A stretch of 34,901 nt of DNA, from contig JACSRE010000119.1 of NCBI GenBank assembly GCA_014879945.1, positions 1 to 34,901 of the forward strand, read 5' to 3'. The number at the start of each line of letters is the position of its first letter. Position 1 is the first letter of the stretch. The position numbers and the translations under genes are program-made. Below the pieces are notes generated by a model that ran no database searches, was not told the origin of the DNA, and saw only the letters and a list, made by a program, of their open reading frames with translations. Source of the DNA: Myxococcus sp. (lineage in GTDB: Bacteria > Myxococcota > Myxococcia > Myxococcales > Myxococcaceae). Of this stretch, positions 3,887-31,622 are shown one piece after another.

Positions 3887-5287
3887 ATGCAGACCGTCAC
3901 CACCCCCGAGACCCCGAAGGCTCCGGCGCCCGCCGCGGTGCAGCCGTTCAAGTACCCGCTCGAGCGCCAGTTCGTCGAACCCGACTGGACGCGCATTCCC
4001 GGGTACCGAGACGTCTCGAAGTCCGACTGGGAGAGCGCCCTCTGGCAGCGCCGGCACACCATCAAGAACCTCAAGGAGCTCAGGGCCGCCCTCGGCGCGC
4101 TGCTGCCCGAGGCGCTGGCGACGTCGATCGAGCGCGATCAGCGTGAGAAGGCGACGATGTCGATCCTGATCACGCCGCACATGGTGAACACCATGAACAC
4201 CGACGATCTGTGGGGCGACCCGCTGCGTCGGTACATGCTCCCGGCGTTCGACGATCGGCACCCCGTCTACTCGAACCACCCGCGGGCCTCGCGCGACTCG
4301 CTCCACGAGGCCGAGATGTGGAAGGTCGAGGGCCTCACCCACCGCTACCCCACCAAGGTGCTCGCCGAGCTGCTCTCGACGTGCCCCCAGTACTGCGGCC
4401 ACTGCACCCGCATGGACCTGGTGGGCAACGACGTGCCGCAGGTGGACAAGCTGAAGTTCACCGTGGCGCAGCCCGAGCGCTGGACGCAGATGCTCGACTA
4501 CCTCCGCAAGACGCCGACGGTGCGCGACGTGGTCGTCTCAGGCGGCGACGTGGCGAACGTGCCCATCGCGCAGCTCGAGAGCTTCGTCAGCCAGCTGCTC
4601 GACATTCCCAACGTGCGCGATATTCGGCTCGCGTCGAAGGGGCTGATGGGCATTCCCCAGCACTACCTGCAGGACAACGTGATGGCGGCGATGGAGCGCC
4701 TGGCCAGGAAGGCCTTCGAGCGCAACGTCGACCTCGCGCTCCACACCCACGTCAACAACGCCAACCAGGTGACGCCGCTGCTGGGCAAGGCCGCCAGGCG
4801 GCTGCTCGAGATGGGCTTCCGCGACGTGCGCAACCAGGGCGTCTTGCTGCGCGGCGTGAACGCGACCTCGAGAGACCTGCTCGAGCTCTCGTTCATGCTG
4901 CTCGATCACGCGCGCATCCTCCCGTACTACTTCTACATGTGCGACATGATCCCCAACTCGGAGCACTGGCGGGTCGCGGTGTGGGAGGCGCAGAAGCTCC
5001 AGCACGACATCATGGGGTACATGCCGGGCTTCGCGACGCCGCGCATCGTCTGTGACGTGCCGTACGTCGGCAAGCGCTGGGTGCACCAGGTGGCCGAGTA
5101 CGACCGCGAGAAGGGCATCTCGTACTGGACGAAGAACTACCGCACCGGCATCGAGCTGCAGGACCCCGAGGCGCTGAACAAGCGCTACGAGTTCTTCGAC
5201 CCGCTCTACACGCTGCCCGAGTCAGGCCAGCAGTGGTGGCGCGCCAACGCGAACACCGAGCAGCTCGCGCACTCGATTCACGCCTGA
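3887..5287 (+). CDS. KamA-family radical SAM protein (lysine 2,3-aminomutase-like, divergent)
   Basis: Product of 466 aa. The 4Fe-4S/SAM motif is C166-x3-C170-x2-C173 (CPQYCGHC), the spacing used by radical SAM enzymes. The family's PLP-binding lysine seems to be kept as K396 in DVPYVGKRW. However, the usual glycine run of true lysine 2,3-aminomutases (PGGGGK) is replaced by PYVGK. Acidic residues that bind substrate in that enzyme have likely counterparts at D353 and D390. It is therefore probably a PLP- and SAM-dependent amino-acid aminomutase with a different substrate from its neighbour. About 50 residues longer than typical lysine 2,3-aminomutase, mainly in the N-terminal part. The next gene, 53 bp downstream on the same strand, is a second family member, so the two are probably co-transcribed. 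Family assignment is firm; substrate is unknown. Confidence 0.88.
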   Translation: MQTVTTPETPKAPAPAAVQPFKYPLERQFVEPDWTRIPGYRDVSKSDWESALWQRRHTIKNLKELRAALGALLPEALATSIERDQREKATMSILITPHMVNTMNTDDLWGDPLRRYMLPAFDDRHPVYSNHPRASRDSLHEAEMWKVEGLTHRYPTKVLAELLSTCPQYCGHCTRMDLVGNDVPQVDKLKFTVAQPERWTQMLDYLRKTPTVRDVVVSGGDVANVPIAQLESFVSQLLDIPNVRDIRLASKGLMGIPQHYLQDNVMAAMERLARKAFERNVDLALHTHVNNANQVTPLLGKAARRLLEMGFRDVRNQGVLLRGVNATSRDLLELSFMLLDHARILPYYFYMCDMIPNSEHWRVAVWEAQKLQHDIMGYMPGFATPRIVCDVPYVGKRWVHQVAEYDREKGISYWTKNYRTGIELQDPEALNKRYEFFDPLYTLPESGQQWWRANANTEQLAHSIHA

Positions 5288-5340
5288 GCGGGCAGGCGGC
5301 GCTTTGCGGCGGCCGCGACCCTTGAGCTAAGCGCGCGCCC

Positions 5341-6549
5341 GTGAGCTTCGACGAGCTGAACAGCGAAGGTGGTTCTGCGCCCAGGGGCCCGGCGGTGCGA
5401 GCGCGTCGCGCCGAGCTGTTCCCCGACGCCACCGACGCGCAGTGGAACGACTGGCGCTGGCAGATGCGCCACGCGGTTCGCGACGGGGCCAGGCTGGCGA
5501 AGGCCCTCTCGCTCACCCTGGCCGAGCGCGCTGGCATCGAAGAGACGGCGAAGATCTTTCGCCTCGGCATCTCGCCCTACTACCTGTCGCTGATCGACCC
5601 CGAGCACCCGTTCTGCCCGGTGCGGATGCAGGCGGTGCCGGTGCAGGCCGAGGCGCGCGTTCGCCCCGGCGAGCTGAGAGACCCTCTCGGTGAAGACCCG
5701 AAGCGCCCCGTCGAGGCGATCGTGCACAAGTACCCCGACCGGGTGCTGTTCCTCGCGCTCGACGCCTGCTCGGTCTACTGCCGGCACTGCACGCGGCGCC
5801 GCATCACCAAGGGCGGCGAGGCGGAGCTGAACAAGGCCGAGCTCGAGAAGGGGCTCGAGTACGTGCGCACGCACCCGCAGGTGCGCGACGTGCTGCTGTC
5901 GGGCGGCGACCCGCTCTTGCTGTCGGAGGAGCGGCTCGAGCAGATCCTCACGCCGCTGCGCGCGATTCCCCACGTCGAGATGATCCGCATCGGCACGCGC
6001 ATTCCGGTGTGTCTGCCGATGCGCGTGACCGAGGCCCTGGCGAAGCTGCTGCGTCGGCACGCGCCGCTCTTCGTGGTGACGCACTTCAACCACCCCAAAG
6101 AGATCACCCCCGAGGCCCGGCGCGCCTGCGAGCTGCTGGTCGACCACGGCGTGCCGGTCGAGAACCAGGCGGTGCTGATGCGCCGGCTCAACTCCGATGC
6201 GCGCATCATCACCGAGCTCAGCCACGAGTGCCTGAAGATGCGGGTGCGGCCGTACTACCTGCACCAGATGGACGTCGCCGAAGGCCTGGAGCACCTGCGC
6301 ACGCCGATGGCCGCCGGGGTGCAGATCATCGAGCAGATGCGTGGGTGGACGACGGGGCTGGCGGTGCCGCACCTGGCGGTCGATCTGCCCGGGGGCGGCG
6401 GCAAGGTGACGGTGCAGCCGGACTACGTGGTGGAGCGCAAGGCGACCGAGACCGTCTTCCGCAACTACCGGGGCGAGTCGTACGCGTACCCCGAGCCCGA
6501 AGAGACCGACTGCACGTGCCCGTACGACGAGGTCTGGCGCGCGCGCTGA
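5341..6549 (+). CDS. kamA: L-lysine 2,3-aminomutase (radical SAM, PLP-dependent)
   Basis: Product of 402 aa, close to the roughly 416 aa of the clostridial enzyme. Known members interconvert L-lysine and L-beta-lysine using a 4Fe-4S cluster, S-adenosylmethionine and PLP. The cluster motif is C143-x3-C147-x2-C150 within CSVYCRHCTRRR, the lysine aminomutase version. The PLP lysine is K355 in DLPGGGGK, and the two aspartates that bind the substrate side chain are D311 (HQMD) and D348. All expected catalytic positions are thus present. A GTG start at 5341 is used because the frame has no earlier good start after the stop of the preceding gene. The beta-lysine could be a solute precursor, an antibiotic building block or a modification of elongation factor P; no partner gene for any of these is nearby. 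A related EF-P-specific isomerase (EpmB) is the main alternative. Confidence 0.85.
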   Translation: MSFDELNSEGGSAPRGPAVRARRAELFPDATDAQWNDWRWQMRHAVRDGARLAKALSLTLAERAGIEETAKIFRLGISPYYLSLIDPEHPFCPVRMQAVPVQAEARVRPGELRDPLGEDPKRPVEAIVHKYPDRVLFLALDACSVYCRHCTRRRITKGGEAELNKAELEKGLEYVRTHPQVRDVLLSGGDPLLLSEERLEQILTPLRAIPHVEMIRIGTRIPVCLPMRVTEALAKLLRRHAPLFVVTHFNHPKEITPEARRACELLVDHGVPVENQAVLMRRLNSDARIITELSHECLKMRVRPYYLHQMDVAEGLEHLRTPMAAGVQIIEQMRGWTTGLAVPHLAVDLPGGGGKVTVQPDYVVERKATETVFRNYRGESYAYPEPEETDCTCPYDEVWRAR

Positions 6550-15459: not shown

Positions 15460-16230
15460 CTACACCTCGACCCGCGCGACCATCGCCTCGTTGACCCAGC
15501 TGGCGATGGCCTGAAAGGCGCGAGGCGCGGCCTCGTCGCCGAACGCCGCGAAGGCCTCGCAGACGGCGGGCAGGGTGGCGCCGTCGCGGGCCAGCTCGAG
15601 CGCCTGCGCCTCGGCGTCGCTCACGGCGTCGTGGAACACGGCGAAGCCCTGGCGGAAGACCACCAGGGCCGTGGGCGTCGCTCCCAGCCGCGCCTCGCGC
15701 CACGGCTGGCCTTCGGCGATGGCGCGGAAGACGGGCCGCACGTCGACGGGGTGGCGCAGCACGCGCACCGAGGGCGTGAGGGTGAAGCGGGCCGTCTCGG
15801 CGGTCTCTGGCGTCACGAGGCCGAGCGCCTCGGCGGTAGCGACGGGGCTGGCTTCGGCGATGAAGGCCTGGCTGCGGGCCCACTCGAGCTCCGCGAGCGC
15901 CCACAGCCACGGCGCCCCTTCGACGGGGTTCGCCCGGAGGAAGGTGGGCAGGTGCTGCCCGAGCCAGTTGAGCGAGAAGTGCGTCGAGGGCTGCGCCTTG
16001 ACGTACTTCGCGGCCAGCACCTCGAAGTCCTCGTCGCCCAGCACCGCCAGCACCTGCTCGAACTCGCTGCGCAGCACGTCGCGCAGCCGCAGCCAGTACA
16101 TCTCGGCGTAGACGTTGACGCGCTCATCGGGCGAGAGCGCGCCGCCCTTGACGAGCACGGCGGTGTCTCGCACGGGCGCGTCGCCGACCAGCCAGTCCCA
16201 CAGCTGGGCCTGCTGGGCCTGAAGGCTCAT
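15460..16230 (-). CDS. bufC: DUF2063 family protein, bufferin maturation partner (HvfC/BufC-like)
   Basis: Product of 256 aa. The N-terminal half (about 10-95) matches the DUF2063 domain, with the block RVNVYAEMYWLRLRDVL and later HFSLNWLGQHLPTFL. In RiPP systems of the bufferin and HvfA type this protein is the partner that brings the precursor to the DUF692 enzyme; it has no known catalysis of its own. The rest (about 100-256) is the helical C-terminal extension usual in this group. Its ATG overlaps the DUF692 stop by 4 nt (ATGA), so the pair is coupled. It is the last gene of the operon and converges on secF. Symbol given by context with the DUF692 gene and precursor. Confidence 0.88.
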   Translation of the reverse strand: MSLQAQQAQLWDWLVGDAPVRDTAVLVKGGALSPDERVNVYAEMYWLRLRDVLRSEFEQVLAVLGDEDFEVLAAKYVKAQPSTHFSLNWLGQHLPTFLRANPVEGAPWLWALAELEWARSQAFIAEASPVATAEALGLVTPETAETARFTLTPSVRVLRHPVDVRPVFRAIAEGQPWREARLGATPTALVVFRQGFAVFHDAVSDAEAQALELARDGATLPAVCEAFAAFGDEAAPRAFQAIASWVNEAMVARVEV

Positions 16231-17084
16231 CGGGCCTCCAGCGTCGGGGCGCGCGCAGGAGGCGGCGCCGCGCGCTCCTCGGCGGCGATGGCGCGGGCCT
16301 TTTGGGCCTCGGCCAGCAGCACGGGCAGCGCGGGCACGCCCTCGTCCCACTCGATGAGGCACGAGACGTCACCGAAGCGCCGCACGGCGTAGCGGTACAG
16401 GCTCCACACGGCGTCGCAGACGTGGCCCTCGTGGGTGTCGATGACGAGGTGGCCGCGGTCCTGGTGGCCGGCCAGGTGGAGCTGGCCGACCCGGTCGAGG
16501 GGGATGGCGTCGAGGTAGGTCTGCGCGTCGAAGCCGTGGTTGCGCGCAGAGACGTAGACGTTGTTGACGTCGAGCAGCAGGCCGCAGTCGGCGCGGCGGG
16601 CCACCTCGGCCAGGAAGTCCCACTCGGTCAGCTCGCTGGCGCGGAACTCGAGGTAGCTGGAGACGTTCTCGAGCAGCAGCCGCCGGCCCAGCACGTCCTG
16701 CACGCGCGCGACGCGGTCGACGACGTGGGCGAGGCACTCCTCGGTGTACGGCACCGGCCACAGATCGTGGCTGTAGTGCCCGTGGGCGCGGCCCCAGCAC
16801 AGGTGATCTGACACCAGCGCCGGCTGCACCTCGTCGACGAGGGCCTTCCACTGCTTCAGGTAGGCCTGGTCGAGCGGCTCGACGCTCCCGATGCCCAGGG
16901 AGACGCCGTGGAGCGCGACCGGGCGATCGCGGCGGGCCTGCTCGAGCACGGCGCGCGGCCGGCCGCCGAGGCCCATGAAGTTCTCGCTGATGGCCTCGAC
17001 GAAGTCGACGCGCGGCGACTGCTCGAGGAAGGCCGCGTAGTGCTGGGTGCGCAGGCCGACGCCGTGACCGAGTGCGGGGAACAT
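16227..17084 (-). CDS. bufB: DUF692 family multinuclear iron enzyme, bufferin maturation (HvfB/BufB-like)
   Basis: Product of 285 aa. DUF692 enzymes of the MbnB type have a TIM-barrel with two or three iron ions and oxidise cysteines in a precursor peptide to heterocycles. Likely metal ligands are visible: H59 (ALHG), D93 and H94 (SDHLCWG), E139 (LLENVSS), D172 and N174 (LLDVNNVYV), H183, H203 and H207 (QLHLAGH), D216 and H218 (IDTHEG) and E245 (IEWD). All signature blocks of the family are intact. The ATG at 17084 has an AAGGAG ribosome-binding site; the longer frame upstream lacks family similarity. It lies 97 bp after the precursor gene with a strong hairpin between, and overlaps bufC. Confidence 0.93.
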   Translation of the reverse strand: MFPALGHGVGLRTQHYAAFLEQSPRVDFVEAISENFMGLGGRPRAVLEQARRDRPVALHGVSLGIGSVEPLDQAYLKQWKALVDEVQPALVSDHLCWGRAHGHYSHDLWPVPYTEECLAHVVDRVARVQDVLGRRLLLENVSSYLEFRASELTEWDFLAEVARRADCGLLLDVNNVYVSARNHGFDAQTYLDAIPLDRVGQLHLAGHQDRGHLVIDTHEGHVCDAVWSLYRYAVRRFGDVSCLIEWDEGVPALPVLLAEAQKARAIAAEERAAPPPARAPTLEAR

Positions 17085-17110
17085 GCAGGGCTCCTTCCAG
17101 AAAAGACGAC

Positions 17111-17160
17111 GGGCGGCGGCGTGATGGGCGGGGAAGCCCCGCGTCACCTCGCCGTCGCCC
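17111..17160 (-). promoter_or_regulatory. Large hairpin between bufferin precursor and enzyme genes
   Basis: On the minus strand the 97-bp gap between bufA and bufB can fold into one long stem. The outer arms (17150-17160 and 17111-17121) pair at 10 of 11 positions, and an inner GCGGGG/CCCCGC stem (17128-17133 with 17137-17142) has a 3-nt loop. A short TCTTTT tract follows at about 17101-17106. It could act as a partial terminator or protect the 3' end of the precursor mRNA, giving more precursor than enzyme. The structure is seen; the function is inferred. Confidence 0.55.
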
Positions 17161-17181
17161 GGAGGCAGCGACCGCGTCGAG

Positions 17182-17457
17182 CTACTTCGCGTCGGCGACG
17201 ACCGTGCCGCCCTTGGCCTTGCAGTCCTTCTCGGCGAGGGTGATCCACCCCTTGCCCTTGCACTCGTTGTGGCCGGCGCAGTCGTGGGTCGCGCCACCGC
17301 ACGCGCCCTTGCCCTTGCACTCGTTCACGCCCGTACACTTCACCTGCGCGGCGTCCTTGGTGTCCTTCTTGGGCATGTCCTTGGGGCCCGCGTAGGCGGC
17401 GCCAGCGAACAGCGACGCGACGGCGGCAGCGACGAGGGCGTTCTTCGAGCTCTTCAT
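17182..17457 (-). CDS. bufA2: Bufferin-type RiPP metallophore precursor (BufA2-like)
   Basis: Product of 91 aa. A Sec signal peptide ends at AYA-G after residue 23, so the mature product is periplasmic and about 68 aa long. It has six cysteines and a repeated motif: CTGVNECKGKG and CAGHNECKGKG, with CGGATHDC between them and a final KDCKAKGG. This is the pattern of BufA2-type bufferins, ribosomal peptides that bind copper after some cysteines are turned into thiooxazoles by DUF692/DUF2063 proteins. The two partner genes follow directly, which supports the call strongly. It has a good ribosome-binding site (GGAG, about 8 nt before ATG). Which cysteines are modified cannot be told from sequence. 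Unlike BufA1/HvfA types it lacks the EGKCG motif. Confidence 0.88.
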   Translation of the reverse strand: MKSSKNALVAAAVASLFAGAAYAGPKDMPKKDTKDAAQVKCTGVNECKGKGACGGATHDCAGHNECKGKGWITLAEKDCKAKGGTVVADAK

Positions 17458-21793: not shown

Positions 21794-24151
21794 ATGAACC
21801 GACTTTTGCTGCTGGCCGCTGTGTTCGCCGGGTCGACGTCGCTGGCGCAGGGCATGTTGATTCCAACCGATCTCTCGATGGGCCCGCTGGGCATCAAGTA
21901 CCAGCGCGTCTCGGCCGAGATCGTCGACGGCACCGCGGTGACGAAGGTCGAGCAGGTGTTCGTCAACAGCTCGCCGCGGCAGCTCGAGGCGCACTTCGTC
22001 TTCCCGCTGCCCAAAGGCGCCGCGCTCCAGGACTTCTACCTGTGGATCAACGGCAAGCGCACCAAGGGTGAGGTGCTCGAGAAGCAGAAGGCCACCGACA
22101 TCTACGAGGGCATCGTGCGGCGCCTGCAGGACCCCGGCCTGCTCGAGTACATCGACACCGACGCCTTCCGCGCGCGGGTGTTCCCGGTGCCGGCCAACGG
22201 AGAGCAGAAGATCGAGCTGAGCTTCAGCCAGGTGCTCGACTTCCAGTCGGGCATCTACCAGTACCACTACCCGCTGGGCGCCTCGTCACGGGGCGCGCCG
22301 CGGCTGGCCGTGCGCCAGGACTTCGTGTTCTCGGCCCACATCACCTCGAAGACGCCGATTCGCAGCGTCTACTCGCCCACGCACAAGATGGGGGTGAACA
22401 AGAAGAGCGACTCCGACGCGGTCGCCGGCCTCGAGCTGGGCGCGGGCACCGACATCTCGAAGGACCTCGATCTCTTCTATACGGTGTCTGACAAGGCCAT
22501 CGGCTTCAGCTTCCTGCCGTACCGGCCCAACAGCGAAGAGCCGGGCTTCTTCATGGCGCTGCTGTCGCCGAAGACCGAGCTGAAGGCCGACGAGGTGATG
22601 CCCAAGCGCATCACCTTCGTGATGGACACCTCGGGCTCGATGATGGGCGAGCGCATCAAGCTGGCGCGCGACTCGATGAAGTACGGCGTGCAGCGCCTCA
22701 ACGCGAGAGACGAGTTCAACGTGGTGCGCTTCTCGACCGACGTCGAGGCGCTCTTCGAGAAGCCCCAGGTGGCCACCGAGGCGAACGTGAAGAAGGCGCT
22801 CGCGTTCGTCGACTCGTTCGAGGCCATCGGTGGTACCGCCATCGACGAGGGGCTCCAGCGCGCGCTCAAAGACGCCGAGGGCCGCGGCGCGATGCAGCAC
22901 ATCGTCTTGTTCGTCACCGACGGCCACCCGACGGTGGGCGTGACCGAGGAGCCCGACATCTCGAGCCGCGCGCGCTCCGGCAACAAGGGCAGCCGCGTCT
23001 TCACCTTCGGCGTCGGGGAAGACCTCAACGCCCGCCTGCTCGACCGCATCGCCGAAGACGGCCGGGGCACCTCTGACTTCGCCCGCGACGGGAAGGACTT
23101 CGAGGTGCGGGTGTCGGGCCTCTTCGACAAGGTGGCCAACCCGGTGCTGGCCGACCTCTCGCTCGAGCTCGCCGCCTTCGGGGCCTACGACGTCTACCCG
23201 AAGAAGCTGCCCGACCTCTTCAAAGGCACGCAGCTCGTCGTCACCGGCCGCTACCGCACCCCGAAGGACGCGACGGTGGTGTTGAGCGGCTCGATGAACG
23301 GCAAGAAGCAGGTGTACGAGTACCGCGCCGACGCCGCGAAAGAGGCGAAGGCCTATGACTTCGTTCCCCGGCTGTGGGCCATTCGCAAGGTGGGCTACGT
23401 GCTCGACGAGATCCGCCTGCACGGCGAGAAGCCCGAGCTGAAGGACGAGATCGTCGCGCTCGGGAAGAAGTACGGCATCGTGACGCCCTACACCTCGTAC
23501 CTGGTCGTCGAAGACACGCCGATGCCGGTGGCGAACAACGTGCGTCCGCCGCCGCCGCCCCGCCCGTGGCGTGAAGAAGAGGCGCGGCGCGACGTGCCCT
23601 GGAGCGCGCGCGGCATCGGCCGAGGCAGCGGCGGGAGCGCGGGTCCGGGGCAGGCGTCGGCGCCGTCGTCGCCCGCGGCCGATCGGCTCCGTGACGAAGA
23701 CGACGTCTTCTCGGGCGCCAAGGCCGAAGAGAAGGCCATGAACAAGCCCAAGGGCTCGGTCTCGCCCGAGCCGTCGCCAGAGCCCGCGAAGGCGCTCGAG
23801 TCGTCGGATGGGCGCACGGGCATCGCGGTCGCCAAGAAGGTGCGCTCCATGAAGGACCAGGAGGTGGCCTCCAAAGAGTCGGAGCCGGTGCGCGTCGCGT
23901 CGGGCCGCACCTTCCTCTTCCGCATGGGCGGGTGGATCGACTCCGAGGCCGTCAACGGCACGGCGAAGCAGCTCAAGGTGAAGTACCTGTCCGAGGCGTA
24001 CTTCGCGATCCTCAAGGCGAAGCCCGACCTCAAGGCGGCCCTGTCGCTCGGCAACCGCGTGGTGATCGTCGTCGGCAAGGACAAGAGCCTGGTCATCACC
24101 CCGGACGACGGCGAGACCAAGGCCGACAAGGTGACCGACTTCTTGAAGTGA
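21794..24151 (+). CDS. Secreted VIT and von Willebrand A domain protein
   Basis: Product of 785 aa. A signal peptide (MNRLLLLAAVFAGSTSLAQ) precedes a VIT domain (about 25-160, with VEQVFVNSSPRQLEAHFVFP). Next is a von Willebrand A domain from about 272, whose metal site DTSGSM starts at D278. After it come a beta-rich region to about 590, a Pro/Arg/Gly/Ser-rich linker (about 578-640) and a C-terminal part resembling the end of such proteins. This layout is that of animal inter-alpha-trypsin inhibitor heavy chains and of many uncharacterised bacterial surface proteins; in bacteria the role is unclear, perhaps metal-dependent adhesion or envelope assembly. Ribosome-binding site GGAGG, 5 nt before the ATG. 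It is followed by a strong hairpin terminator. Confidence 0.9.
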   Translation: MNRLLLLAAVFAGSTSLAQGMLIPTDLSMGPLGIKYQRVSAEIVDGTAVTKVEQVFVNSSPRQLEAHFVFPLPKGAALQDFYLWINGKRTKGEVLEKQKATDIYEGIVRRLQDPGLLEYIDTDAFRARVFPVPANGEQKIELSFSQVLDFQSGIYQYHYPLGASSRGAPRLAVRQDFVFSAHITSKTPIRSVYSPTHKMGVNKKSDSDAVAGLELGAGTDISKDLDLFYTVSDKAIGFSFLPYRPNSEEPGFFMALLSPKTELKADEVMPKRITFVMDTSGSMMGERIKLARDSMKYGVQRLNARDEFNVVRFSTDVEALFEKPQVATEANVKKALAFVDSFEAIGGTAIDEGLQRALKDAEGRGAMQHIVLFVTDGHPTVGVTEEPDISSRARSGNKGSRVFTFGVGEDLNARLLDRIAEDGRGTSDFARDGKDFEVRVSGLFDKVANPVLADLSLELAAFGAYDVYPKKLPDLFKGTQLVVTGRYRTPKDATVVLSGSMNGKKQVYEYRADAAKEAKAYDFVPRLWAIRKVGYVLDEIRLHGEKPELKDEIVALGKKYGIVTPYTSYLVVEDTPMPVANNVRPPPPPRPWREEEARRDVPWSARGIGRGSGGSAGPGQASAPSSPAADRLRDEDDVFSGAKAEEKAMNKPKGSVSPEPSPEPAKALESSDGRTGIAVAKKVRSMKDQEVASKESEPVRVASGRTFLFRMGGWIDSEAVNGTAKQLKVKYLSEAYFAILKAKPDLKAALSLGNRVVIVVGKDKSLVITPDDGETKADKVTDFLK

Positions 24152-24291: not shown

Positions 24292-24693
24292 ATGATCCGC
24301 ACGCGCTCTCTCCTGCTCGCCCTCGTCGTCGTCGGCGGCTGCACGCGCGAGGCGGCGCCGGTGAAAGACGTGACGGTCGCCGAGGCGGCGGCGCAGTTCG
24401 AGGCTGGCACCGCGACGCCGGTCGACGCCAACACCCAGGAGTACCGCGACGCCGTGGGCTGGGTGCCGGGCGCGGTGCGGCTGGCCGACTACGCCAACTA
24501 CCCGCTCACCGACCTGCCCGAGGACAAGGGCCGCGCGCTCGTCTTCTACTGCACCAGTCGAATGTGAACGGCCTCTCATGAAGCTGCCGGTCGGGCAGCG
24601 AAGAGCGGGTGGAAGAACGTCGGCGTGATGAGCGAGGGCATGAAGGGCTGGCGGGCCGCGGGGCATCCGCTCGAGAAGGCGGCCGCTCAGTAG
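24292..24693 (+). CDS. Rhodanese-like lipoprotein with in-frame TGA, probable selenoprotein (Sec92)
   Basis: Read through one TGA, the frame gives 133 aa. A lipoprotein signal ends in VVVGGC (Cys17), followed by a rhodanese domain: an N-terminal VDANTQEYRDAVGWVPGAVRL block, the active-site segment VFYC(87)TSRM, then TGA at 24565-24567 (codon 92), then TASHEAAGRAAKSGWKNVGV, MSEGMKGWRAAGHPL and a TAG at 24691. The second half is in the same frame and fits a rhodanese C-terminal half exactly, so no frameshift is involved. Periplasmic rhodaneses of this type usually carry a second cysteine here (C-x4-C), so TGA replaces a Cys codon, giving C-x4-U. A hairpin with a GGUC loop follows within 22 nt (separate entry). 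Without readthrough the product would be a 91-aa truncated protein. A nonsense mutation or sequencing error is the alternative, but selenocysteine explains all the facts. Confidence 0.75.
24565..24606 (+). promoter_or_regulatory. Probable bacterial SECIS element after the rhodanese TGA
   Basis: Directly after the TGA, GCTGCC (24583-24588) pairs perfectly with GGCAGC (24594-24599) around the loop GGTCG. A short lower stem CTCT (24573-24576) with AGAG (24602-24605) is possible across an internal loop. The loop starts 22 nt after the TGA, inside the range used by bacterial SECIS elements, and GGUC is the apical sequence of the E. coli fdhF element recognised by SelB. The fold is drawn by hand; no energy calculation was made. 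Confidence 0.65.
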
Positions 24694-24779
24694 CGCTGGG
24701 AACCTGTCGGGCGAGGCGGTGTCAGGAGCGGTCGAGCCCGCCTCGAGCGCGGGTGACCCACCTCACTGGAGATGCCCCG

Positions 24780-26525
24780 ATGCGAGTGCTCGCCCTGGTT
24801 GTCGTGTGTTCCTGGTGTGCCTGCAGCCGCCCCTCGCCTCAGGTCGAGGTCGAAGCGCCTGCGCCGGTGGTGAAGGCCGGCTCGGTCGCGGTGGAGAAGA
24901 AGCTCCTGCCAGCTCCGACCGAAGATGTCCTGGTGGCCCCCGACCCCGCGCTCAGCCGGGCCAGGGTGGCCGACCGCGGCGTCCTCAAGGCGATCGGCGA
25001 CTCCACGGCGGAAGGTTCCCCCAGGGCGTTCAAGGGCGGCGGCGCCGGAATGGGCGTGGGCGTCGCCAACGGCGTCGGCGGGCTGGGCTTGCGAGGCGTC
25101 GGCAGCGGCGGCGGCGGAAGGGGCCACCTGATGGGCGGCTTCGCGCTCTCGGGTGAGGTCGAGTCGGGTGAGGCGTACGGCGACTACGGCGTCAACGCGT
25201 GGACCGACGCCGCGAAGGACCACCTCTCGACCTTCGCCGCCGACGTCGACACCGCCTCGTACACCATCGCGCGAAGGAAGATCGTCGAGGGCCGCATGCC
25301 GCCGCCCGAGTCGGTGCGCGTCGAGGAGTTCCTCAACTACTTCAAGTACCGCTACCCGCAGCCCGAAGGCGGCGCGCTGGGCGTGACGATGGACTCCGCG
25401 CCCTCGCCCTTCTCGAGCGGGCGGCACCTGCTGCGCGTCGGGGTGCAGGGGCGACGGCTGTCGGTGTCGGAGCGCAAGCCCGCGCACCTCACCTTCCTCG
25501 TCGACGTCTCGGGCTCGATGCAGTCGCCCGACAAGCTGCCCCTGGCCCAGCGCGCGCTCCGGCTGCTCGTCGACAACCTGCGCGACGGCGACACCGTGGC
25601 GCTCGTCACCTACGCGGGCAACGTGCGGGTGGTGCTGCCCCACACGGGCATGGAGAAGAAGGCCCTCATTCACGAGGCGATCGCGGGGCTGACGGCGGGC
25701 GGCTCGACGGCGATGGCCTCGGGCATCGAGCTGGCCTACCAGCAGGCGACCAAGGTGCTCGACGGCGAGTCGATCTCTCGCGTCGTCATCCTCTCTGACG
25801 GCGACGCCAACGTCGGCCGCACCTCGCCCGAGGCCATTCGCGCGCTGATCGCCGGCCACGTCAAAGAGGGCATCACCGTCACCACCGTCGGCTTCGGCAT
25901 GGGCAACTACAAAGACGACCTGATGGAGCAGTTCGCCAACAAGGGAAACGGCAACCACTACTACGTGGACTCGCTGTTCGAGGCGAAGCGGGTGTTCCAG
26001 ACCGAGCTTGGCGGCACGCTCGAGGTCATCGCCCAGGACGTGAAGCTGCAGGTGGACTTCGACCCGGCGCAGGTGAAGCGCTACCGCCTCGTCGGCTACG
26101 AGAACCGCGCCATCGCCGACGTCGACTTCCGCAACGACCGGGTCGACGCCGGCGAGATCGGCTCGGGCCACACCGTCACGGCGCTGTACGAGCTCGAGCT
26201 CCAGCCGGGCGCGGGCGAGAGGCTCTGCACGGTGCGGGTGCGCGCGAAGAAGCCCCGCGGCACCGAGGCGGCCGAGCAGGCCTTCCCGTTCCCTGCCGCC
26301 GCGCTGGCCGCGCGCTTCGACGGCGCTCCCAGAGATCTGCGCTTCGCGACGGCGGTGATGGGGGCGGCCGAGCTGCTGCGCCAGAGCCCCGAGGCCCGCG
26401 GCTGGAGCTTCGACGCCGTTCGCGAGATCGCCCGCAGCGCCGCCGGTGACGACGCCGACCGTCGGGAGTTCGTCGCGTTGTTGGACGCGGCGGGCCCGGT
26501 GCTCAAGGCCGTCGCGTCACGGTGA
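24780..26525 (+). CDS. YfbK-like von Willebrand A domain lipoprotein
   Basis: Product of 581 aa. A short hydrophobic start (MRVLALVVVCSWCACS) suggests a lipoprotein with Cys15 as anchor, though the box is not canonical. A low-complexity part and a Gly-rich stretch (about 90-120) follow, then the YfbK-type N-terminal block DTASYTIARRKIVEGRMPPPESVRVEEFLNYF in two parts. The vWA domain starts near 235 with the metal site DVSGSM at D242, and VVILSDGDANVG further on. The C-terminal part (about 410-580) fits the conserved YfbK tail. Such proteins are widespread in bacterial envelopes but their function is not settled. Ribosome-binding site GGAGA, 7 nt before the ATG at 24780; the longer upstream frame runs through the rhodanese gene and is not real. 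Confidence 0.9.
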   Translation: MRVLALVVVCSWCACSRPSPQVEVEAPAPVVKAGSVAVEKKLLPAPTEDVLVAPDPALSRARVADRGVLKAIGDSTAEGSPRAFKGGGAGMGVGVANGVGGLGLRGVGSGGGGRGHLMGGFALSGEVESGEAYGDYGVNAWTDAAKDHLSTFAADVDTASYTIARRKIVEGRMPPPESVRVEEFLNYFKYRYPQPEGGALGVTMDSAPSPFSSGRHLLRVGVQGRRLSVSERKPAHLTFLVDVSGSMQSPDKLPLAQRALRLLVDNLRDGDTVALVTYAGNVRVVLPHTGMEKKALIHEAIAGLTAGGSTAMASGIELAYQQATKVLDGESISRVVILSDGDANVGRTSPEAIRALIAGHVKEGITVTTVGFGMGNYKDDLMEQFANKGNGNHYYVDSLFEAKRVFQTELGGTLEVIAQDVKLQVDFDPAQVKRYRLVGYENRAIADVDFRNDRVDAGEIGSGHTVTALYELELQPGAGERLCTVRVRAKKPRGTEAAEQAFPFPAAALAARFDGAPRDLRFATAVMGAAELLRQSPEARGWSFDAVREIARSAAGDDADRREFVALLDAAGPVLKAVASR

Positions 26526-27602: not shown

Positions 27603-28547
27603 CTACGGCTGGGGCGCGTTCCCCGCCGCCAGCTGCTGCCGGAGCTGCATGATGGCGCCGCGCATCATCGGCGGCACCTCACCCGGAGGCGCGACGGCCA
27701 CGTACTGCTCGAAGTTCTTCACCGCCCGGGCCGGGTCGTTCTGATCCATCGCGATCATGCCCGCGTACAGGTGGCCGGGGTACGCGTCGGGGTACAGGGT
27801 GCCGAGGCGCTCGAGCTCGTCGAGCGCGCTCCCCACCTCGCCGTCGACGGCCTGCATGATGGCGCGGCCCACGCGCGTCTTCACGTGGAAGGGGTCGAGC
27901 ATGGTGGCGCGCTGGAGGAAGGGCCTGGACTCGTCGAAGCCCTGCTTGCTGATGAGGTACAGCCCCGCCTCGGCGAGCGCGTCGATGTCGTCAGGCGCCT
28001 TCTGCACCGCGCCCAGCACCGCCTCGAGCTTCGGGTCTGACTGGGGCTCCTGTGGCGCTTCGGGGCCGCCGCCGCCAGGCATCATGCCCGTCACGCCCAT
28101 GCCGTCTTCGCGCGGCCGGGTGGCGCTGTTCATCGAGAACCACAGCACGGCGAAGAAGAGCACCACCGCGCCGCCGATGAAGGCGCCCTTCAGGGTGGGG
28201 TTCTTCGCCAGCAGCCCGGTCTCGGCGGCCTGCGCGCGCTTCTCGGCGCGGGCCTCGGCCTTGAGCGCCTCGTGCTTGTGCGCGTCGCGCGCCTTCAGCA
28301 ACTGCACCGCGAGGCCCTCGAGGCGCTTCTTCTCGGCCTCCCACTGCTCGGGCGGCAGCAGGTGCTTGTTGGCGGTGTGCTCTTTGAGCTCGCCGATCAC
28401 CGTCTGGTAGCGGGCGTTCAGGTCATCGGGCGGCGCGTCGTTGGCGGGCGCGGCGCGCTTGGCGACGAAGAGGTAGGCCAGCGAGCCCACCACGCCGGCG
28501 GCGGTCACCAGAATGCCAGGCAGCCAGTTCGTCTCGGGCGCAGCCAT
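27603..28547 (-). CDS. ccmI: CcmI-like TPR protein of cytochrome c maturation
   Basis: Product of 314 aa. Two membrane helices (about 9-30 and 121-139) flank a coiled-coil loop (about 60-110) rich in Lys, Glu and Ala. A C-terminal periplasmic part (about 165-314) has TPR-like repeats, such as DALAEAGLYLISKQGFDESRPF and the next at YPGHLYAGMIAMDQNDPARAV. CcmI holds apocytochrome c for haem attachment. The topology of two helices, a helical loop and a TPR domain is that of CcmI, though sequence divergence leaves some doubt. Start ATG at 28547 overlaps the ccmH stop by one base (TGATG), with GGAG as ribosome-binding site. Confidence 0.75.
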   Translation of the reverse strand: MAAPETNWLPGILVTAAGVVGSLAYLFVAKRAAPANDAPPDDLNARYQTVIGELKEHTANKHLLPPEQWEAEKKRLEGLAVQLLKARDAHKHEALKAEARAEKRAQAAETGLLAKNPTLKGAFIGGAVVLFFAVLWFSMNSATRPREDGMGVTGMMPGGGGPEAPQEPQSDPKLEAVLGAVQKAPDDIDALAEAGLYLISKQGFDESRPFLQRATMLDPFHVKTRVGRAIMQAVDGEVGSALDELERLGTLYPDAYPGHLYAGMIAMDQNDPARAVKNFEQYVAVAPPGEVPPMMRGAIMQLRQQLAAGNAPQP

Positions 28548-29029
28548 CACTGCTCCAGGTCGGCACGCACCTGCGCGAGCAGGGCGTCGTCAGAGGTCGG
28601 GGCCGGGCCGGCCGGCGTGGTGGCCGGGGCGCCAGCGGCGGCGCTCGCGGCCGCGCGTCGCTTCGACTGCATCACGATGATGATCAGGCCGACGCCCAGC
28701 AACGCCACCGGGCCCAGCCACAGCACCGAGTTGAGCCCGCCGGTGGTGGGCTGGAGCAGCACCCACTCGCCGTAGCGCTCGATGAAGTACGCGTAGATCT
28801 CTTCATCGCTCTTGTTCTCGGCGACGAGCTCGCGCACCTTGTCGAGCTGCGCGCGGGCCATCGAGGCCGGAGAGTCGGCGATCGACACGCCCTGACACAC
28901 GGCGCACCGCAGCTGCTTGCCCAGCCGCATCACGCGGGCTTCCTTCTCGGCCTCGAGCGGGTCGAGGCCCTGGCGCTGCGGCGCGTAGCCCTGGCCCAAC
29001 AGCAGTGACACCAGCAGGGCGAACGTCAC
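28547..29029 (-). CDS. ccmH: Cytochrome c maturation protein CcmH
   Basis: Product of 160 aa. CcmH keeps the cysteines of the apocytochrome CXXCH motif reduced for haem attachment. The hallmark LRCAVCQ is present with C42 and C45, followed by the family block SIADSPASMARAQLDKVREL and YAYFIERYGEWVLLQP. A signal peptide starts at the GTG (TFALLVSLLLGQG), and a C-terminal helix lies at about 112-130 (VLWLGPVALLGVGLIIIV). The GTG start at 29029 overlaps the stop of the upstream gene by 4 nt. A longer frame upstream lies inside the ccmG gene and is not real. Confidence 0.95.
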   Translation of the reverse strand: MTFALLVSLLLGQGYAPQRQGLDPLEAEKEARVMRLGKQLRCAVCQGVSIADSPASMARAQLDKVRELVAENKSDEEIYAYFIERYGEWVLLQPTTGGLNSVLWLGPVALLGVGLIIIVMQSKRRAAASAAAGAPATTPAGPAPTSDDALLAQVRADLEQ

Positions 29030-29547
29030 TGGAGGATCCCCTTCATGCGGGCGTCGATCTGCATCGGGTGGCTGAAGGGCGCGGCGACCTTGCCCTGAAT
29101 GATGCCCTCTCGGGTGATGAAGTACGTCTCGGGTACGCCCGACACGCCGTAGTCCACCGCCACCGTCGACTTCGGGTCGAACAGCTGGGGAAACGTCCAC
29201 CCGTTCTCGGCGAGGAAGCGCTTGGTGTTCTGCTCGTTGTCTTCGAAGACGATGCCGAGAAACACCGCGTCCTTCTCGTACTTCTTCCACGCGTACTCGA
29301 GCACCGGGTGCTCGGCTTTGCAGGGCCCGCACCACGTCGCCCAGAAGTTGAGGACGATGGGCCGGCCCTTGAACTGGTCGAGGGTGACCTCTTGATCGTT
29401 GTCGAGGCGCTTGATCTTGAAGTTCGGCGCCGCCTTCCCATTGAGGAGGAAGGGCACCTCGTGCGGGTCGGTGCCGAAGGCCTTGAACAAGACGAAGATC
29501 AGCAGGCCGATGACGGCGAGCGCGATGATCGGTCCGAGGCGTTTCAT
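29026..29547 (-). CDS. ccmG: Thiol-disulfide oxidoreductase CcmG/ResA (DsbE family)
   Basis: Product of 173 aa. One N-terminal helix (about 5-22) anchors a periplasmic thioredoxin-fold domain with the active site WCGPC (C73, C76) in VLNFWATWCGPCKAEHP. The cis-proline segment is GVPETYFI. Members pass electrons to apocytochrome c or CcmH. Its ATG overlaps the ccmF stop (ATGA) and its stop overlaps the ccmH start (GTGA), so all are translationally coupled. Confidence 0.94.
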   Translation of the reverse strand: MKRLGPIIALAVIGLLIFVLFKAFGTDPHEVPFLLNGKAAPNFKIKRLDNDQEVTLDQFKGRPIVLNFWATWCGPCKAEHPVLEYAWKKYEKDAVFLGIVFEDNEQNTKRFLAENGWTFPQLFDPKSTVAVDYGVSGVPETYFITREGIIQGKVAAPFSHPMQIDARMKGILQ

Positions 29548-31622
29548 GTCGTCCCCGTGGCGGCGTTGGGGGCCGGCGCTTCGGCCTTCACCGCGGCGGC
29601 CGTCTTGCGCTGCGGCCACAGCGCGATGAGCGTGCCCAGCACCAGCAGCGGAATCGCGTACCAGATCCACCCCACCAGCGGGAACACCCAGGCGTTGAAG
29701 GTCGCCGTCTGGGCCTTGCCGTCGTAGGTGCGCAGCGAGACGTAGACGTCGCGCCACACCATCTCCTGCACCAGGGGAGAGCCGATGGGGTCGTTGGAGC
29801 GCTCGTAGTAGTTCATGCGCGGCGCGTCGGCGCCGATGTGGCGTCGCTCCTCGCCGCCGGGGCCGATGACGGTGATGTTGGCGGCCACCCACTCACGGTG
29901 CGGCTCCTTGCCGTTGGCCAGCCCGTCGAAGCGCACCGAGTAGTCGCCCACCTTCATCGCCTCGCCGGCCTTGAGCGTGCGCTCGGCGGCGACCTTGTAC
30001 GCAGACGACGCGGCGACGGCGAGGATGATGGCCACGATGCCCAGGTGCACCACGTAGCCGCCGAAGCGCCGGCGCGCGCGGCTGGCCGAGGCCACGAAGG
30101 CGGTGAAGAGCGACTCCTTCGACTCGGCCATGCGCTGCTGCGCGGGCAGGAACATCTCTCGCAGGGTGACGACGGTGACGAAGGTGCCCACCCCGAAGGT
30201 GATGGCCGCCATCACGTCGCCGCTGCGCATCGCCGAGGCGAAGCCGCCGAAGGTCTTCTCGCCGCCGCCCAGCGGCTCCCACGCGCCGTAGCGCCACAGC
30301 ACCACCGGCAGCAGCGTCAGCACGCCCAGCCCGCCGGGGATGAGGAACTGCTGCTTGAGCACCTTCGGGTCGGCCTTGCCCCACGGCAGCATCGGCCCCA
30401 CGCCCATGAGGAAGAGCATCAACAGGCCCAGCGGCAGCGCCATGGTGTTGAAGTACGGCTCGCCCACGCTGATCTTCTTGTTCTGCAGCGCCTCGGTGAC
30501 GAGCGGGAAGAGGGTGCCCAGCAGCACCGTGAAGGTGAGCGCCACGAAGACGAGGTTGTTCACCAGGATCGAGCCCTCGCGCGACACCACCGTCTCGAGG
30601 TGGCTCTCGGCCACCAGCAGGTGCCCGCGCACCGTCAGCAGCAGCACGCAGAACACCAGCACCACCGCGATGAAGACCAGGAACGTCGGCCCGATGTCCG
30701 ACTGGGTGAAGGAGTGCACCGAGTTGAAGACGCCCGAGCGCGTCATGAAGGTGCCGATGATGGTCAGCACGAAGCTGCCGAGGGCCAGCGCGATGGTCCA
30801 CAGCTTGAGCGACTTCTTGCGCTCCAGCACCATGGTGGAGTGCATGAAGGCCGTCGCCGTCAGCCACGGCATGAACGACGCGTTCTCGACCGGGTCCCAC
30901 GCCCAGTAGCCGCCCCAGCCCAGCACCGCGTAGGCCCACCAGGAGCCGAGGATGATGCCGACCGACAGGAACAGCCAGGGCACCAGCGTCCACTTGCGCA
31001 GCGGCACCAACCACGCGTCGCCCAGCTCGCCGCGCAGCAGCGCGCCGGCCGCGATGCCGAACGGCACCGTCATGCCCACGTACCCGAGGTACAGCATGGG
31101 CGGGTGGATGATCATCAGCACGTGGTTCTGCAGGAGCGGGTTGGGGCCCGGGCCATCGGAGAGCGGGTTGGGCACCACGCCCCACGGGTTGGCAGGCCCC
31201 GCGATGAGGAAGGCGAAGAAGGTGGCCACCGCCGCCATCACGCCGAGCGACAGCTGCATGTAGCGGCCGTGCTCCCGGCGGTAGGTGAGGGTGAAGGCCA
31301 GCAGGTACGCGCCCATGATGGCGCCCCAGAAGAGAATCGAGCCCTCGAGCGCGCTCCACAGCGAGACGATGGTGAAGATGGTGGGCGTCGCCTTGCTGCC
31401 GACCTGCGAGACGTACTTCACCGAGAAGTCGTGCTCGAGCAGCGCCTTCACCATCACCAGGTTCGACAGAATCATCGAGCCGGCGAAGCCGTAGACGGCC
31501 CGCTGCACCCAGGGCAGGGCGTTCTCGCGGCGCGTCATGCCCGTCACCAGGCCCACCACCGCGGCGAAGGCCGCGAAGCCCAGGCCCAACAAGACCAGCC
31601 CATATCCAAGGGTCGAATTCAC
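29544..31622 (-). CDS. ccmF: Haem lyase subunit CcmF (cytochrome c maturation system I)
   Basis: Product of 692 aa, many membrane helices. CcmF is the central haem transfer subunit of the system I machinery. The WWD domain, which binds haem, is clear: GSWWAYAVLGWGGYWAWDP around 226-243, continuing to VENASFMPW. Conserved histidines H167 and H173 (NHVLMIIHPP) precede it, as expected of haem ligands. A long periplasmic part follows near residues 560-640 before the last helix. It starts at a GTG (31622) with a weak ribosome-binding site; the frame has no better start nearby. ccmABCDE are not in the window and must lie elsewhere if the system is complete. The divergent TPR gene starts 187 bp away. 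Confidence 0.95.
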   Translation of the reverse strand: MNSTLGYGLVLLGLGFAAFAAVVGLVTGMTRRENALPWVQRAVYGFAGSMILSNLVMVKALLEHDFSVKYVSQVGSKATPTIFTIVSLWSALEGSILFWGAIMGAYLLAFTLTYRREHGRYMQLSLGVMAAVATFFAFLIAGPANPWGVVPNPLSDGPGPNPLLQNHVLMIIHPPMLYLGYVGMTVPFGIAAGALLRGELGDAWLVPLRKWTLVPWLFLSVGIILGSWWAYAVLGWGGYWAWDPVENASFMPWLTATAFMHSTMVLERKKSLKLWTIALALGSFVLTIIGTFMTRSGVFNSVHSFTQSDIGPTFLVFIAVVLVFCVLLLTVRGHLLVAESHLETVVSREGSILVNNLVFVALTFTVLLGTLFPLVTEALQNKKISVGEPYFNTMALPLGLLMLFLMGVGPMLPWGKADPKVLKQQFLIPGGLGVLTLLPVVLWRYGAWEPLGGGEKTFGGFASAMRSGDVMAAITFGVGTFVTVVTLREMFLPAQQRMAESKESLFTAFVASASRARRRFGGYVVHLGIVAIILAVAASSAYKVAAERTLKAGEAMKVGDYSVRFDGLANGKEPHREWVAANITVIGPGGEERRHIGADAPRMNYYERSNDPIGSPLVQEMVWRDVYVSLRTYDGKAQTATFNAWVFPLVGWIWYAIPLLVLGTLIALWPQRKTAAAVKAEAPAPNAATGTT

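Follow-up and report, generated by a model that had tools for sequence, protein, structure and literature searches.

A rhodanese gene with an in-frame TGA

The window analysed here is a stretch of 34,901 nucleotides from Myxococcus sp. (contig JACSRE010000119.1), part of a draft genome (G000) of 7.72 Mb in 448 contigs. On the plus strand, positions 24292-24693 form a single frame from ATG to TAG that contains one TGA (24565-24567, residue 92), and translation of this codon as selenocysteine (Sec, U) gives a protein of 133 residues, from MIRTR to KAAAQ and then the TAG; orthologues start at the corresponding signal peptide. The Pfam Rhodanese model (PF00581) matches residues 28-122, spanning the TGA, with 39.4 bits against a cut-off of 22.2, in agreement with the original prediction that one frame runs across the TGA and that a rhodanese C-terminal half follows it up to the TAG. 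Standard gene calling ends at the TGA and yields 91 aa from the ATG at 24292, as had been anticipated.

The 5′ end of the gene (24292-24342) encodes a signal peptide with a lipobox, MIRTRSLLLALVVVGG followed by Cys17 (24340-24342), which was predicted from sequence, the lipobox itself (VVGGC, residues 13-17) being judged by eye. Of the 10 Sec orthologues in the Myxococcaceae clade, 8 have a cysteine at this position, the end of the signal peptide, which supports the lipid anchor proposed earlier, and the protein is probably an exported, single-domain rhodanese with a lipid anchor. The rhodanese active-site loop opens with Cys87 (TGC, 24550-24552), and the motif FYC-TSRM-U-TAS places the TGA at Cys+5 (C-x4-U). 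The C-terminal half of the rhodanese domain is translated after the TGA, from 24568 to 24690.

Conservation of the TGA and of a downstream hairpin

In all, 36 sequences, drawn from 35 Myxococcota genomes and including the window, have a TGA at Cys+5, after FYC or YC. The remaining relatives have Cys in this column, and neither TAA nor TAG was found there among the TGA-bearing sequences and their relatives, which bears out the suggestion that the TGA lies five residues after the catalytic Cys where relatives have a second one. Within the same family (96 genomes), the TGA was present in all six orthologue-bearing genomes of the genus and in four of other genera, with the Cys form in about twenty others, and a survey of 195 genomes of the phylum added further TGA forms in families f2, f3 and f7. 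Several TGA forms lie on single-contig assemblies (including G126, G127, G128, G131 and G137). A contig scan also recovered relatives in an Archangiaceae MAG and a Myxococcaceae MAG, as well as a relative with Cys in a Nitrospiraceae MAG.

Cys87 is invariant in the 27 aligned rows, each of which has either Cys or Sec at the second loop position, and A98, A99, G106, G116 and W120, all downstream of the TGA, are likewise kept in 27/27. Counted over all pairs, codons downstream of the hairpin show 178, 169 and 292 substitutions at their first, second and third positions, so that third positions are favoured, and no decay was seen when it was looked for in the relatives' sequence after the TGA column.

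The window's own genome carries a Cys paralogue (L117, G000:C86:15258-15608) that reads FYCANESCGAS, with C-x4-C and 40% identity. In a quick, midpoint-rooted tree of 116 columns, the ten Myxococcaceae Sec forms cluster (SH-aLRT 96) within a group of Cys forms, the f2 and f3 Sec forms fall outside that group, and the Sec/Cys label requires two changes. In family f2 and in G155, the sequences L087, L089, L090, L092, L093 and L096-L101 read FYCANxHUMACH or similar; this variant is Cys-x4-Sec-x2-Cys, with a Cys at Sec+3 that creates a UxxC redox motif within the rhodanese loop. A second Sec rhodanese subfamily (L047 and L104-L107, e.g. YCRGGGUTLS and YCNGPTUGKS) stands apart in the tree. One further rhodanese relative (L126, G012:C55), near a contig end, is interrupted by a TAG immediately ahead of its active-site Cys (LIF*CANEMC) and looks decayed.

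Downstream of the TGA, positions 24583-24599 (plus strand) form a bacterial SECIS apical hairpin, with a 6-bp stem (GCUGCC/GGCAGC, 24583-24588 with 24594-24599) and the loop GGUCG (24589-24593), 21 nt separating the TGA from the loop. Bacterial SECIS elements are described as having a loop of 3-9 nt, a stem of 4-16 bp, a G in the first two loop positions and a spacing of 16-37 nt (PMC13188914), and the 5-nt loop, 6-bp stem and 21-nt spacing of the window hairpin fall within this model, in line with the GGUC hairpin originally proposed from this region. Folded from the window sequence alone, the hairpin is only slightly better than chance (z = -2.0 relative to shuffled sequences) and 33% of synonymous recodings are equally stable, which is unremarkable for such GC-rich codons. 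Its significance comes instead from comparison, through the occurrence of TGA and hairpin together in 36 sequences from 35 genomes.

With the T of the TGA as column 1, columns 19-24 pair with 30-35, and every stem cell (100%) is paired in the 32 distinct aligned sequences. Double changes were seen in the same sequences at pair 20/34 (C-G to G-C) and at pair 21/33 (C-G to U-A). None of 500 shuffles reached as high a covariation score, and shifting the partner abolished the covariation. RNAalifold returned the same stem plus pair 18/36, which changes from G-C to C-G and is A-G in five sequences, so that compensatory changes were found at two to three stem pairs overall. The Myxococcaceae clade has the loop GGUCG; in f2 and f3 it is mostly CGUGC, CGUGA or a similar sequence. 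In two members of the second Sec subfamily (L047 and L107) the loop is GGUC, four bases long and shifted towards the TGA by one base.

The hairpin is absent from the Cys homologues that were folded: mean minimum free energy was -14.8 kcal/mol for the Sec genes (recodings -10.7) compared to -6.0 kcal/mol for the Cys homologues (recodings -7.8). Where the Myxococcaceae Sec clade has Gly (AAGRA), most of the Cys homologues carry a different residue, such as Lys or Gln (AAKRA, AAQRA), although AAGRA does occur in one of them, L118. From this we infer that the RNA loop may dictate the Gly of AAGRA in the Sec clade.

Selenocysteine machinery and alternative readings of the TGA

All four genes of the selenocysteine pathway were found in the same genome, the absence of which had been named beforehand as grounds for abandoning the prediction: tRNA-Sec (selC, 72.9 bits, anticodon TCA), selA (568.7 bits), selB (316.2 bits) and selD (383.1 bits), each above its curated cut-off. 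Across the phylum, selA was detected in 34 of the 35 genomes with the TGA form compared to 16 of the 32 genomes with only a non-TGA form (Fisher p = 8e-6, on counts that treat related genomes as independent). The one TGA-form genome without a detected selA (G115) is 61% complete, and another (G083), in which selB was not above its cut-off, is a draft with 82% completeness. In family f2, which is rich in TGA forms, the selA-less genomes G121 and G122 have TGC in the Sec column and the sequence of the hairpin loop is destroyed; the TGC form L123 reads FYCGGEMCMACHEAA compared to FYCANTHUMACHQAA in its Sec relatives.

The machinery, the conserved TGA and the covarying hairpin all support the proposal that this is a selenoprotein gene, and from these comparisons we put the probability that 24292-24693 encodes a selenoprotein at about 0.97. 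SelB with Sec-tRNA(Sec) would decode the UGA at 24565-24567 as Sec, directed by the hairpin at 24583-24599. That the product is both a genuine selenoprotein and an envelope rhodanese is very likely.

Ordinary gene calling ends at the TGA, as expected if the codon were a true stop and the gene either a pseudogene or the source of a truncated 91-residue protein. This reading is highly improbable, being refuted by comparison with the relatives, in which the TGA is conserved across genomes and is never replaced by another stop codon, the rhodanese residues downstream are kept and the hairpin covaries. The alignment thus answers the concern, raised at the outset, that homologues might show random stops and decay after this codon. 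A sequencing or assembly error, by which TGC or TGT was misread as TGA, would need only a single-base difference in a draft genome, but the same TGA recurs: five other species of the genus have it, as do about 30 additional genomes, single-contig assemblies among them. This recurrence excludes the error for practical purposes. Decoding of the UGA as some other amino acid, by a reassigned code or by readthrough independent of a SECIS element, has nothing in its favour except the open frame and is about as negligible, as tRNA-Sec and selABD are present, TGA terminates the neighbouring gene normally (24149-24151), and the recoded site lies in a Cys column and is followed by a SECIS element.

Predicted fold, possible mechanism and relation to known rhodanese selenoproteins

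AlphaFold2 models of four sequences (mean pLDDT 83) place a strand at residues 82-86, a loop beginning with Cys87 and a helix at 92-104 that starts with Sec92, and the Foldseek matches of the predicted model are rhodaneses. The plain rhodanese 6mxv lacks the second Cys, and its loop is shorter than this one by two residues. The occurrence of Cys or Sec at the second loop position in every aligned relative is what would be expected of a redox pair. From the positions of these residues, Cys87 could take up sulfane sulfur or react with an oxidised thiol, after which Sec92 would attack, releasing the product and forming a Cys87-Sec92 selenenylsulfide that a periplasmic thioredoxin-like reductant might then reduce. 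The predicted role would be that of an envelope persulfide/thiol oxidoreductase, not of a plain thiosulfate:cyanide sulfurtransferase. Taken alone, the mechanism with Sec92 as the resolving residue is the likeliest of those considered, at slightly less than even odds.

A selenoprotein could also act as a plain sulfurtransferase, with Cys87 alone bearing the persulfide and Sec92 tuning the pKa or affinity of the loop. In the predicted model Cys87 follows the strand, as the catalytic residue of a classical rhodanese does, and the fold resembles those of sulfurtransferases, both of which fit such a role. The strict retention of Cys or Sec at the second position argues against it, as does the loop of 6mxv-type rhodaneses, two residues shorter and missing the second Cys, and we regard a plain sulfurtransferase as rather unlikely. 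Returning to the resolving Sec92, the broader proposal of a separate, Myxococcota-wide family of envelope selenoenzymes, in which a Cys-x4-Sec redox pair acts through a selenenylsulfide as a persulfide reductase and not as a sulfurtransferase, is more tentative than the mechanism itself.

Rhodanese-domain selenoproteins are already known in five forms, with the motifs UxxS, UxxG, CxU, UxxG and UxxxxU (2026 review, PMC13188914). The original description of a selenocysteine rhodanese as unusual was therefore overstated, although the lipid anchor that formed part of it is predicted here as well. No NCBIfam model scored above its cut-off for this protein. The lowest E-value of any NCBIfam family was that of TsoB (NF045694, a rhodanese/DsbD fusion-like protein, form 5), with 36.3 bits over residues 75-132 against a cut-off of 805; TsoB likewise has a pair of redox residues in the loop with four residues between them, but they read UxxxxU rather than CxxxxU, and it is a fusion of 572 positions with two Sec, whereas the protein here is a single domain of 133 aa with Cys and then Sec. 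The rhodanese-related (seleno)protein NF041203 (form 3) is likewise small and its loop also has a Cys ahead of a Sec, but the spacing is CxU instead of Cx4U, and the score of 29.7 bits lies under its cut-off of 115. Form 1 (UxxS, WP_010941598.1, PMC13188914) was compared by motif only, and since U-T-A-S in the window protein also reads as UxxS, form 1 could share the Sec position. The PQQ-dependent catabolism-associated CXXCW protein (TIGR03865), which is not described as a selenoprotein, is weakly similar over the C-terminal half, with 36.4 bits where its cut-off requires 128. The Cys paralogues, such as that of the window's own genome, have the same domain with Cys in place of Sec.

The CxxxxU motif is not among the forms in the review (PMC13188914), and neither CxxxxU nor CX4U was found in the literature searched. 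The protein also falls far short of the NF045694 and NF041203 cut-offs, and both findings set it apart as a new member: rhodanese selenoproteins are known, and what is new is an unannotated, probably lipid-anchored Cys-x4-Sec member, with form 1 compared by motif only. Given that standard callers read a 91-residue stump, a conserved selenoprotein subfamily has probably been missed across the Myxococcota. Its recognition would extend selenium use in myxobacteria to the sulfur chemistry of the envelope. With Sec and Cys paralogues in one genome and Cys in selA-less lineages, it also offers a clean system for Sec/Cys exchange.

Genes for a VIT/VWA protein (21794-24151) and a YfbK-like VWA protein (24777-26525) flank the rhodanese gene and are kept nearby in several species of the genus. 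In other lineages, judged by eye outside the window, the rhodanese lies beside enolase-like and ThiC-like genes, a transporter-like gene or cytochrome c maturation genes; no stable partner and no conserved operon was found across lineages, and the neighbourhood was rejected as a clue to function because it varies between them. Cytochrome c maturation genes (CcmF, CcmH, thioredoxin-like and TPR) lie 3 kb downstream in the window (27603-31622, minus strand), and such genes are also close to the Sec rhodanese L112 in G053. Elsewhere in the window, the 23S rRNA 3′ end (1-384) and the 5S rRNA (521-637) occupy the contig start, and an Rfam scan of the window at the gathering threshold returned rRNA only. 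An MbnB/TglH/ChrH-family enzyme (369.8 bits) is encoded with a 91-aa, Cys-rich exported peptide without a Pfam match at 16227-17457 on the minus strand, a pair that looks like a metal-related RiPP (bufferin-like) system. Judged by sequence, two tandem radical-SAM proteins at 3887-6549 appear to resemble lysine 2,3-aminomutases.
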